DNA of 36,922 nt. Source: a virus. This document shows, piece after piece, positions 22,233 to 25,136 of this stretch. How positions within the stretch are numbered: the stretch's first letter is position 1; the number at the start of each line of letters is the position of its first letter. Location: positions 1 through 36,922 of the IMG/VR virus record IMGVR_UViG_3300006810_000146; one strand, written 5' to 3'. Under the pieces are notes generated by a model, which saw only the letters and a list, made by a program, of their open reading frames with translations, made no database searches and was not told the DNA's origin. Position numbers and translations under genes: made by a program.

Positions 22233-22607
22233 ATGCCCGACGTAAGGACGACGTTTAACTCAAGGGACGGCTTACTCAGGATTGAGGTGGAGGATGACGA
22301 GGGCCACAAAGTGGGCATCCCCCTCTCCGCAGAGACTGCAGCGCGTCTGATTGGAAACCTGCTGGGTATGTTGCCGTTATGCGAGCCGACCGGACGGGAG
22401 GACACGATGATCCTTGGCGATCTTCAGTCTCCGACTGTTCGGACAGGGACCACGCATGAAGGCGAGTTTTTGCTCGACGTGTATCTGTCATCTGACGTCG
22501 CACTCCGGTTTACGCTTGAGGACGGACAATGGGCCGGCGTCTGCCGCGAAGTCTTCGACATGATCAAAACGAAGGCCGAAGGACGGGGCGACAATCCGGT
22601 CCAATGA
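22233..22607 (+). CDS. Plus-strand moron, hypothetical protein (124 aa)
   Basis: The protein is beta-rich at first (VRTTFNSRDGLLRIEVEDDEGHKVGIPLSAETAARLIGNLLG). Its second half is LDVYLSSDVALRFTLEDGQWAGVCREVFDMI. It has no signal peptide or membrane segment. ATG 22233 has a GGAG/GAGAG sequence before it and a terminator just after the stop, so it is a complete single-gene unit. No family is recognised. It is convergent to the repeat array of the neighbouring module. Confidence 0.65.
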   Translation: MPDVRTTFNSRDGLLRIEVEDDEGHKVGIPLSAETAARLIGNLLGMLPLCEPTGREDTMILGDLQSPTVRTGTTHEGEFLLDVYLSSDVALRFTLEDGQWAGVCREVFDMIKTKAEGRGDNPVQ

Positions 22608-22640
22608 AAAGGCCGCCCCGAAGGACGGCCCGATCTTTTT
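22607..22640. terminator. Bidirectional intrinsic terminator
   Basis: GGCCG/CGGCC arms plus two inner pairs close a CGAA loop (22611-22630). Five T follow on the plus strand (22636-22640) and four T on the minus strand (22610-22607). It ends the 22233 gene and would also end a minus-strand transcript running through the phased array. Confidence 0.75.
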
Positions 22641-22648
22641 ACTTCAAA

Positions 22649-22828
22649 CCGGCCGCGACGCGACACGCCTCTGCGCGCCATGCCGAACCCCGCCTAGCCT
22701 GCCATACCAAGCGTTGCCAAACCGCGCCCCGCCGTGCCTAGCCTGCGTTACCAGACCGAGACCCGCCTCGACGTACCGGGACTCACCATCCCCCGCCTAG
22801 CCTGCCCTGCCGTGATCCTCGCCAGCCG
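22649..22828 (-). repeat. Noncoding 5-nt-phased GG array with three 11-bp repeats
   Basis: On the minus strand GG dinucleotides recur every 5 nt. Between 22653 and 22811 I count 33 phase positions: 25 hold GG and the other eight keep one G. The three bases between are variable, the first usually C or T. Three copies of GCAGGCTAGGC (plus-strand coordinates 22692-22702, 22736-22746, 22795-22805) each contain a 4-nt step, the only breaks in phase; they are 44 and 59 nt apart. No open frame with a ribosome-binding site fits. It lies directly 3' of, and on the same strand as, the genes at 22855-24116, so it is probably transcribed with them up to the terminator at 22607. Confidence 0.8.
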
Positions 22829-22854
22829 ATCGGGCGATCAGCTCCGCGCCATTC

Positions 22855-23361
22855 TCAAGCAGCAATATCGTGCTGTTTCGCTGCCTGTTCGAGAAGCGTC
22901 TTGAGCCTCTCCAAGTTTCTCATCGACCCGCCGGCAAATTCCACCGCCGAACCGTATCGCCGAAGCCATGTTTCCATGGCCTGTGCCGCCTGCCGACAAT
23001 GCTCGGCCATATGGCTCGGGTCATTGGCATCGAACAGTTTGTATCCGCCACCGTCGCGGCGGGTGGCAATCGGCGAGATCACGAGTGGTGTTTCCGTTTG
23101 ACGAATCCGAACCGGCTTCGTCTGCCCCACTTCTTCGACCTGGAACGTGACCCGAAGCCCTTTGGCAAACTCACGAGCCTGCCAAAGCTTATGCTCGAAT
23201 GCGGCCTTGTCGGCGTCCCACTCGAACCACCCGTGCGCAGGGTGCAAAGGCCCGACCCGCTCGACTTCCTCAAGGAATATCCGAGGGTTGTAGTTACCGT
23301 TGTGGCGGACGGCGAACTCCTGAATAATTTCTTGCCGCCGCTCTTTGGTGAAGTTCGCCAT
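22855..23361 (-). CDS. Unknown partner of the RAMP-like protein (168 aa)
   Basis: The gene starts by TAATG overlap with the gene before it and ends 27 nt from the phased array. The product opens with a basic helix (NFTKERRQEIIQEFAVRHNG), continues with WFEWDADKAAFEHKLWQAREFA and a beta segment (TFQVEEV), and ends with two helices around AMETWLRRYGSA and LERLKTLLEQAA. It has no Cys cluster, membrane segment or known nuclease motif. Coupling suggests it works with the RAMP-like protein. Similar proteins occur in other phages as far as I can recall, without a function. Confidence 0.65.
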   Translation of the reverse strand: MANFTKERRQEIIQEFAVRHNGNYNPRIFLEEVERVGPLHPAHGWFEWDADKAAFEHKLWQAREFAKGLRVTFQVEEVGQTKPVRIRQTETPLVISPIATRRDGGGYKLFDANDPSHMAEHCRQAAQAMETWLRRYGSAVEFAGGSMRNLERLKTLLEQAAKQHDIAA

Positions 23362-24116
23362 TATGCAGCCCTCCGCTTCGTCTCGGCAGCGTAGAACTCC
23401 ATCAACTCTGCGGTGTCGCTCCCGGCAAAATCGGGATCAGCGAGAGCGGCTTCCTGCGCATCGCGAGCGTGGTACTCGACAAGCTCATTCCACTCGTCAT
23501 CGTCCTCGCCTTCGCCAATGACGCGAAACAGCCCGTAGCCGCCCTTGCCCTTTTCCTGTCGAAAGTCGCCGACGCCGACCAGCACTCCTGCATTACAGAG
23601 CAGCGTCACAACCGAGGTCATGGAAAGCTGCGGCATGATGAACTGGACGTTCAGTTCGGCACCCCACTTCGGAAGGAAGCAGCGAGACCGTACGTCCGGG
23701 GTCCGCGCCATGTCGGCGGAGCGAACCACGTCCATCCGCAAGTGAGGCGTCCCGTAGAGCGCGACCCTGTCGCCGGGCAGGAAAAGAAGGCGTTGCGCCG
23801 AGGTCTTTGTCATCCCCGGCGTTTCCAGCGCCGCCGTTGCCATGGCCGCTTTTACAGCGACGACCTGGAGCCCGAGAGCGGTCGGACCATCATCCATGAT
23901 CTCGGCGCTATCCCGAAACTCTTGGAGCGGATGGTGCTTGATCTCGACGCGCTCGGCACGGGTCTTTTTCTTCGTCCCGACGAGCAGACCCTGCTTGACC
24001 TTGGCGCTCATTCGGTTCTGGAACATCGGCTGTGTACCAACGATCCTGAGCTTAACTGACCCACGCCGCAAAGGCTGGATGGTGATGTCTGCGGTTTCTT
24101 TTTTGGCGGTTGCCAT
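23361..24116 (-). CDS. RAMP-like protein with glycine-rich loop
   Basis: The 251-residue protein has an N-terminal strand-type start (SVKLRIVGTQPMFQNRM) and a middle containing LPGDRVALYGTPHLRMDVVRSADM. Residues 177-197 read GVLVGVGDFRQEKGKGGYG, then FRVIGEG. This Gly-rich loop after a hydrophobic helix resembles the loop of RAMP/ferredoxin-like RNA-binding proteins (Cas7/Cas6 superfamily). An acidic C-terminal helix follows. Binding of RNA or single-stranded DNA is inferred, not shown. ATG 24116 has GGAG upstream; ATG 24131 has none. A possible leader stem stands just before the ribosome-binding site. Confidence 0.6.
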   Translation of the reverse strand: MATAKKETADITIQPLRRGSVKLRIVGTQPMFQNRMSAKVKQGLLVGTKKKTRAERVEIKHHPLQEFRDSAEIMDDGPTALGLQVVAVKAAMATAALETPGMTKTSAQRLLFLPGDRVALYGTPHLRMDVVRSADMARTPDVRSRCFLPKWGAELNVQFIMPQLSMTSVVTLLCNAGVLVGVGDFRQEKGKGGYGLFRVIGEGEDDDEWNELVEYHARDAQEAALADPDFAGSDTAELMEFYAAETKRRAA

Positions 24117-24125
24117 TTGATTTAT

Positions 24126-24196
24126 CTCCATTGGCGCCCGGCCCGCCAAGCCCGGAAACGCACAGGGGTTCGCTTTCGCGAACACCGGGGCCAATG
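24126..24196 (-). promoter_or_regulatory. Leader stem next to the RAMP-like gene's ribosome-binding site
   Basis: In the minus-strand transcript, CATTGGC (24196-24190) can pair with GCCAATG (24135-24129), enclosing a GTTCGC-gaaa-GCGAAC hairpin (24183-24168). The GGAG that serves ATG 24116 overlaps the closing stem's last base. Folding could affect translation of the RAMP-like gene. A GGTGTTCGCG copy just before adds to the symmetry. The rest of 24195-24255 holds nothing I can identify. Confidence 0.45.
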
Positions 24197-24255
24197 AAGC
24201 TGGTGTTCGCGTCTCATCCCCATGGCGGCGGGGAATTCAAATCTTGATTTTGGTG

Positions 24256-24666
24256 TTAAGCGGCGCGTCTCGTGTTTCTGGCGGCCTCGTCGGCCTTCCG
24301 CTTCCGCCCGATCATCCACTCCATGACCTCGGCGATGTCGGAGCCGCAATCCAGCATCTCGTAGGACGAGACAATGCGGATGGCCTCCTCGTCCTCGTCT
24401 GGATTGCCGGTCGGCTCGCGGTGCTTCATTTCGAGGATGAACATCTCGCGCAGCCCGCCGAGCCGGTCCATTTCCTTGGCTATCCACTTTCCGCCGACGC
24501 TATTGGCGTCGCACCTCGGCTGATTGTAGACGCCGCAGAGACCGTCGATCCCGGCGGACAGAGCCGCGATCACGACCTCCAACTCAATCCCCGCCATGTG
24601 CGGGAGGCGCATCGCCTCGGTCGGAAACGACTGCGCCAGTCGGGCCTTCCTCTCCATGTCCGCCAT
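24256..24666 (-). CDS. Unknown protein of the accessory module (136 aa)
   Basis: ATG 24666 overlaps the TGA of the gene before it. The protein is mainly helical, with MAGIELEVVIAALSAGIDGLCG and MDRLGGLREMFILEMKHRE segments and an acidic GNPDEDEEAIRI stretch. Its end (WMIGRKRKADEAARNTRRAA) is strongly basic and could bind nucleic acid. No family is recognised. Transcription with the RAMP-like gene is likely although 139 nt separate the two. Confidence 0.55.
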   Translation of the reverse strand: MADMERKARLAQSFPTEAMRLPHMAGIELEVVIAALSAGIDGLCGVYNQPRCDANSVGGKWIAKEMDRLGGLREMFILEMKHREPTGNPDEDEEAIRIVSSYEMLDCGSDIAEVMEWMIGRKRKADEAARNTRRAA

Positions 24667-24827
24667 CACGCTGCCTCCAGCACGCGAACGGCGCCACCGG
24701 ACAGAACCGGCTTGGGCTTGTCGGCGATAACCAGGGCGGACGACGCATCGCCTTCAATGCGGGCAAAGGCGCTTGCCACGAACGGGTCGCGGGCAATGCG
24801 GGAAAGCTGTATGGTGCGGGTAGCCAT
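24666..24827 (-). CDS. Small first protein of the accessory module (53 aa)
   Basis: The short frame begins ATGGCTACCCGCACC behind AGGAGG and ends in a TGA that overlaps the next ATG. The product is MATRTIQLSRIARDP followed by an Ala-rich, mixed sequence ending VLSGGAVRVLEAA. It is the promoter-proximal gene of the module, transcribed away from the ribbon-helix-helix gene. A role as an antitoxin-like or adaptor peptide is possible, but nothing shows it. Confidence 0.55.
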   Translation of the reverse strand: MATRTIQLSRIARDPFVASAFARIEGDASSALVIADKPKPVLSGGAVRVLEAA

Positions 24828-24909: not shown

Positions 24910-24935
24910 GGTAATTTCAGGAGGCGTCAATTACC
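24910..24935. promoter_or_regulatory. Palindromic operator over the RBS of the RHH gene
   Basis: GGTAATT at 24910-24916 and AATTACC at 24929-24935 are perfect inverted arms around 12 nt. AGGAGG, the only ribosome-binding site for the RHH gene, lies between them at 24919-24924, and an AT-rich TATATA stretch stands at its left. A dimeric RHH protein could bind it and repress both its own gene and the divergent module. In RNA the same arms would form a hairpin with the ribosome-binding site in the loop. Confidence 0.6.
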
Positions 24936-24938
24936 CAT

Positions 24939-25136
24939 ATGCGAAATTCACCCCCTCGCCCTCGCGGGCGACCAGAGACCGTGCCGCATAAGAAGCTCAT
25001 CGCGTTTGACGATGAGACCTTAACGGCTGTCGATGCGTTCACCGCCGATCAAGGTGACAAGCCCAATCGATCCGAAGCGATCCGGCGCCTTTTGCGGGAT
25101 GCCCTGATCAGCCTTGGCTATCTCAAGAACAGTTGA
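24939..25136 (+). CDS. Ribbon-helix-helix (CopG/Arc-type) regulator
   Basis: The 65-residue protein has a basic N-terminal strand (HKKLIAFDDETLTAVDAF) and two helices (ADQGDKPNRSEAIRRLLRDALISLG), the RHH fold of small dimeric repressors. It starts at ATG 24939 just after the palindrome. It is divergent from the accessory module and convergent with the tail tube gene, four bases from its end. The likely role is control of the module's promoter and its own. Confidence 0.75.
   Translation: MRNSPPRPRGRPETVPHKKLIAFDDETLTAVDAFTADQGDKPNRSEAIRRLLRDALISLGYLKNS

Follow-up and report, generated by a model that had tools for sequence, protein, structure and literature searches.

What are a RAMP-like gene, a small partner gene and a phased array of short repeats doing side by side in a phage genome? 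The window analyzed here is the whole 36,922-nt stretch of IMG/VR virus record IMGVR_UViG_3300006810_000146, and a sequence-only reading of it had proposed a nucleic-acid-guided module for inter-phage competition, adding that no described system held this set of parts. The proposal itself is supported by the protein fold, by the co-travel of the parts and by decoded guides that point at rival phages. The addition no longer holds: the set is that of VIPR (Viral Interference Programmable Repeat; PMC13142463, preprint 2026). We conclude, with a probability of about 95%, that the locus is a phage-encoded VIPR system whose guides specify sites within the late tail genes of rival myophages. What we observed at this locus, and what the conclusion draws on, is the fold and family of the protein, the linkage of the parts, the array grammar, the target matches and the mismatch to the phage's own genes.

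A VIPR system is made of a RAMP protein (Vipr), an accessory protein (vap) and vrRNAs composed of GGY/NN repeats, 9-16 repeats per vrRNA (PMC13142463). The NN dinucleotides pair with dsDNA, with one base skipped, and transcription is repressed; the targets are competing phages and satellites (PMC13142463). Guides of the SUSP1 clade are directed at satellites and many of the P. fulva clade at lysogeny regulators. RNA co-purification, the skip rule, repression and phage interference have been reported for these other VIPRs, in experiments done mainly on two related loci (PMC13142463). The preprint describes a tree of seven types and six vap families and mentions staggered arrays; type II (SUSP1/P. 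fulva) has vap1 as its accessory, and its vrRNAs all bear an invariant structured tail at the 3' end (PMC13142463). The features of the window locus are as follows:

22610..22631, minus strand: intrinsic-terminator-like hairpin with T run, end of operon and array (hairpin scan)
22646..22811, minus strand: GGY/NN pentamer guide array (vrRNA array)
22651..22699, minus strand: guide block 3, NN = TA GG TC AT GC GA GT GC GC
22700..22743, minus strand: guide block 2, NN = TA AC GG GC TT AA TT AT
22744..22802, minus strand: guide block 1, NN = TA GG AT GA CC AC GA GG TC CT AA
22803..22811, minus strand: array lead, GGCAG GGCA (related arrays mostly begin GGCAC GGCA or similar)
22855..23361, minus strand: partner, 168 aa, candidate VIPR accessory (vap), of a family with the motif HPxHxxFxWDDxxAA
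23361..24116, minus strand: vipr, RAMP-superfamily protein, 251 aa
24256-24669 and 24666-24827, minus strand: 137-aa and 53-aa genes, between vipr and the RHH gene
24939..25136, plus strand: divergent RHH repressor-like gene, possible module regulator

The 251-aa protein is a Vipr homologue. A profile built from 86 of its relatives matched a single solved structure, 36pp_D (named "SUSP1 Vipr protein"), at E=6e-27, the next-best and unrelated match being at E=0.03; the protein also matches phrog_4652. Among sequenced genomes, the nearest relatives are from Aureimonas, Microvirga and Bradyrhizobium; for sequenced isolates, the nearest one is a prophage of Aureimonas ureilytica DSM 18598 (L206). 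The RAMP-like character claimed from the sequence is borne out by the AlphaFold model as well (pLDDT 93.7): the 38 Foldseek matches at E<=1e-3 are CRISPR RAMP complexes (Csm3 and relatives), and VIA-align superposes residues about 16-203 of the model on a Csm-type Cas7 with Z 10.1 and 3.8 A over 138 residues. The Gly-rich loop read from the sequence is confirmed and ranks among the most conserved parts of the protein, with G177, G181, G183, R186, G195 and F197 invariant or nearly so in the 86 relatives. In the model, the helices at 38-70 are a candidate for the thumb element, which in VIPR interrupts pairing.

Top fold matches to Csm3-type Cas7, together with a shared RRM-type core and glycine-rich loop, might suggest that the phage captured a reduced class 1 CRISPR-Cas effector, a solo Cas7/Csm3. 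We consider this the least probable of the explanations weighed here. The sequence homology is to Vipr and not to Cas7: identity to Csm3/Cas7 is about 5-15%, and Pfam RAMPs matched 1 of the 86 family members, at E=0.13. PADLOC gave zero matches among the five proteins searched, and neither CRISPR repeats nor a CRISPR array was found beside the gene. The repeat grammar next to it has a period of 5 nt, whereas class 1 CRISPR RAMPs have a spacing of 6 nt.

The vipr and partner ORFs overlap by 1 nt as TAATG, just as had been read from the sequence. The partner model is confident (pLDDT 95.8), and searches of PDB and BFVD returned no match at E<=0.001, a result that does not by itself make the fold a new one. 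Comparison with SUSP1 vap1 detected neither sequence nor profile similarity. The partner family is present in 79 of 83 Vipr loci, always on the Vipr strand, and the partner probably serves as the accessory of this system. Searches of Pfam for the module genes and of Rfam for the module and array gave nothing useful.

Generic tools overlooked the array. Tandem Repeats Finder and a generic repeat search did not recognize it, since two of every five bases vary. A simple dynamic programme that parses pentamers in which GGY is fixed and NN is free scored 55.6 on the array strand and 12.5 on the opposite strand of the window, while 60 first-order Markov windows of equal length reached at most 13.5. 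Thus, the phased array is real. Counted on the DNA, it consists of three guide blocks, with 11, 8 and 9 units. Every block opens with GGCTA and closes with a 4-nt unit (CGCA, GGCA or GGCC), at which the phase moves by one. A tenth unit (CG) of guide 3 was considered and dropped, as the block end parses as the 4-nt GGCC step; its best match thereby went from 17/20 to 17/18. A structured 3' tail on each block, like that of SUSP1 vrRNAs, was looked for and not found; a hairpin is present only after the last block, as the terminator. In five loci of other lineages (L031, L042, L057, L061 and L074) the blocks are separated by GGCGGTC rather than GGCA-GGC, and the separator seems to be lineage-specific.

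Several units of the window array are degenerate (GTC, CGC, GCA or GGG in place of GGY), and more of them are so than in the arrays of L002 or L019. The array is also short. Could it be the remnant of a decaying or silenced VIPR, with intact protein genes, an eroding array and inefficient guiding? We regard this as unlikely, though as the strongest of the competing explanations. The ORFs are intact, all blocks keep their phase and their GGCA/CGCA/GGCC ends, and GTC/GAC units occur in related arrays too. Moreover, all three blocks still match plausible rival targets, as described below.

An association of vipr, partner and array should be visible in other genomes. Searching IMG/VR with the 251-aa protein yielded 80 Vipr loci. 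In 76 of them an array shares the strand of the gene, and in 0 it is on the opposite strand; two of the four without an array are cut by a contig end just past the gene or partner. The reverse search of IMG/VR was blind to protein, its query being eight GGC triplets with two free bases between them. It returned 120 stretches, 72 of them strong arrays, and 59 of these 72 have a Vipr-family gene on the array strand (13 do not). The relatives carry an array and do not appear as array-less virion proteins. With this and the RAMP fold, neither of the two refuting conditions named along with the proposal came true. The array lies behind the partner, between both genes or in front of them, and this variability is more easily reconciled with a transcribed RNA than with a cis-acting site of fixed position. 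Strong GGC-NN arrays with no same-strand Vipr detected include those of L084, L105, L109, L149, L167, L172, L175 and L195; some arrays of this kind are close to contig ends, and others may have a divergent Vipr or stand alone.

Not all of the proposed module survived this comparison. Four minus-strand genes and the array had been grouped together, and of these the parts that recur with one another are vipr, partner and array alone. Within the Vipr loci searched, relatives of the 137-aa and 53-aa genes turned up in an identical twin contig and nowhere else, and both genes may be unrelated cargo; a four-gene module was rejected. The terminator had been called bidirectional, and the hairpin with its T run stands on the minus strand but was not listed by the scan on the plus strand; by eye, a GC-rich hairpin and T run also follow several related arrays. 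As for the palindrome-controlled RHH regulator, the gene matches phrog_4738 (transcriptional repressor) at E=5e-9, and the palindrome, judged by eye, is an imperfect GGTAATT/AATTACC inverted repeat at 24910-24935, just upstream of the gene. At four more loci (L008, L009, L015 and L018), vipr likewise has a similar divergent RHH gene upstream, and this makes the gene a possible regulator of the module.

To decode the guides, we applied the VIPR rule, in which NN pairs with the target and one base is skipped between dinucleotides. A search of IMG/VR placed the 18-base core of guide 1 in 5 contigs, each time at the same position of a tape-measure-type gene (codons YGIDPTDGSL; TMP_3 for the two genes tested), whereas the same guide with its units reversed was found in 1 contig. 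The front TA, which lay outside the search core, also matches in all five contigs, and the full match in their tape-measure genes is 20-21/22; in L262 it is 21/22. The last unit, AA, is matched as a Lys codon in L262 and L269-L271. The match runs from the first to the last unit of the block, with no visible continuation past the 4-nt step, so that each block is probably one guide.

Guides 2 and 3 both point to a DUF3383 sheath-like gene. The 16 bases of guide 2 match exactly in 42 IMG/VR contigs, mostly of low-GC phages, where the matches are probably due to chance. One 16/16 match is in the GC-rich contig L221, within a sheath-like gene 57% identical to the window's own homologue; it is this position, and this position only, that makes the guide 2 target credible. 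L221 was retrieved by guide 2 alone and has two further sites: one for guide 1, at 19/22, within its tape-measure gene, and one for guide 3, at 17/18, within the same sheath-like gene. Guide 3 also reaches 17/18 in the sheath-like genes of L261, L262, L276 and L282. A contig with perfect matches to all three guides was not found.

As a control, we assembled 30 phage loci picked by sheath homology and not by guide match, leaving out L221 and the window twins. On this set, guide 1 matched 21/22 at a skip of 1 and 16-17 at skips of 0, 2 and 3, and none of 400 unit-order shuffles reached 21. Guide 3 matched 17/18 at a skip of 1 and 13-14 at other skips, and 1 of 1000 shuffles reached 17. Relative to length, guides 1 and 3 (the window copies being those of L204) matched more closely on this set than any other decoded guide. 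Because the loci of this control belong to related phages, the target sites are not independent events. Within these limits, the published 1-nt skip rule was tested here independently, by computation, and it holds.

Other searches were less informative. Guide 1 gave two matches in 199 family genomes, one in a tape-measure-like gene (L294) and one in an unrelated gene (L293). A set of 1089 decoded guides showed no clear excess at any skip rule in about 2 Mb of VIPR flanks, which were the wrong database for this purpose. An Aureimonas guide gave 4 matches at 2 mismatches in the 199 genomes against 2 for its reversed control, which is uninformative. The last guide before position 9616 of L208 (Microvirga zambiensis), of 9 units, matches 17/18 at L287:809 with a 1-nt skip (codons DIRNYYDRI), and judging from this match the site is a possible natural target of that guide.

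The guide matches are in codon register: NN falls on codon positions 1 and 2 and the skipped base on the wobble position. Synonymous third-position changes would consequently give a rival no escape. The phage itself would be spared, since its own sheath-like gene is mismatched at both orthologous sites (11/16 for guide 2 and 14/18 for guide 3). Its own tape-measure gene matches a different family, PhageMin_Tail, and a search of the whole window for own sites gave no good one (best 15/22, 11/16 and 14/20). These results bear on another explanation, in which the array RNA is not a set of guides but a decoy or scaffold for the RAMP protein, or a set of control elements for the phage's own genes. 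The conserved repeat scaffold and the position of the array, adjoining the RAMP gene on the same strand, would suit a decoy or scaffold. However, the NN bases are non-random and decode above shuffles, at a 1-nt skip only, to sites in rival tail genes, and own-gene control lacks a good site in the genome. We judge this explanation very improbable.

For the VIPR reading, we envisage the following mechanism. Transcription would take in vipr, vap and the array that follows them, up to the terminator, and the 4-nt steps would be the sites at which the array RNA is processed. Vipr, a minimal Cas7-like RAMP, would then coat one block of GGY/NN guide RNA. By analogy with the described systems, GGY would be the scaffold held by the protein, NN would pair with dsDNA at one dinucleotide per three target bases, and the bound complex would block transcription of the target. 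The targets would be genes of phages in the same broad myophage group, the tape measure gene for guide 1 and the DUF3383 sheath-like gene for guides 2 and 3, and rivals would be expected to suffer accordingly.

Like SUSP1 VIPR (Escherichia phage, type II), the window system is phage-encoded and has a Vipr homologue, guides built of GGY/NN pentamers, an accessory gene immediately after vipr, and 1-nt-skip matches of its guides to competing phage elements. It differs in several respects: (i) the window Vipr has 251 aa as opposed to 195, its C-terminal part from about residue 207 being a helical extension; (ii) the partner is without detected sequence similarity to vap1; (iii) the guides are head-to-tail with the 4-nt step only, whereas SUSP1 has units of about 100 nt, each with a structured tail; and (iv) late tail genes are targeted rather than the satellites of the SUSP1 clade. 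These differences could mark a VIPR variant in which head-to-tail guides separated only by a 4-nt GGCA, with an accessory unrelated to SUSP1 vap1, correspond to the first two codon positions of conserved motifs in tail proteins and silence late tail genes across a whole group of relatives while sparing the phage's own diverged genes. This fuller description is tentative, and we would sooner expect parts of it to need revision than the whole to stand. The variant may be one of the types in the preprint, which mentions staggered arrays and vap2-6 (PMC13142463); hence, we claim no new type.

As a class of RNA-guided system, VIPR has been recognized only very recently, in a single preprint, and the window adds a member from a distant lineage, with relatives in Hyphomicrobiales. 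Its natural targets make biological sense: the guides read codon positions 1 and 2 in tail genes of related competitors and mismatch the phage itself. Inter-phage warfare thus becomes an idea that can be tested directly beyond E. coli and Pseudomonas. The analysis also gives a probable function to hypothetical genes of phrog_4652, among them the ones found in mycobacteriophages of Cheoctovirus. In phrog_4652/phrog_15946, vipr homologues (E 6e-6 to 8e-11) are found in mycobacteriophage Pippy (gp48/gp49) and the Gordonia phages ODay and UmaThurman; as in the window, a GGC-NN array is nearby on the same strand and partner homologues come after them, but the genes are annotated as hypothetical, are about 28-33% identical and occupy another genome position. 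In Pippy the array is at L081:5650-5860 (about 34.5-34.7 kb into the record), immediately upstream of gp48/gp49, and these two genes and their counterparts in Cheoctovirus relatives, likewise annotated as hypothetical, are Vipr and partner relatives. Finally, the Vipr of GU169904.1 (H61), labelled Staphylococcus phage SA1, is 98.4% identical to that of SUSP1 and enterobacterial phages, which suggests that this record is mislabelled or contaminated.
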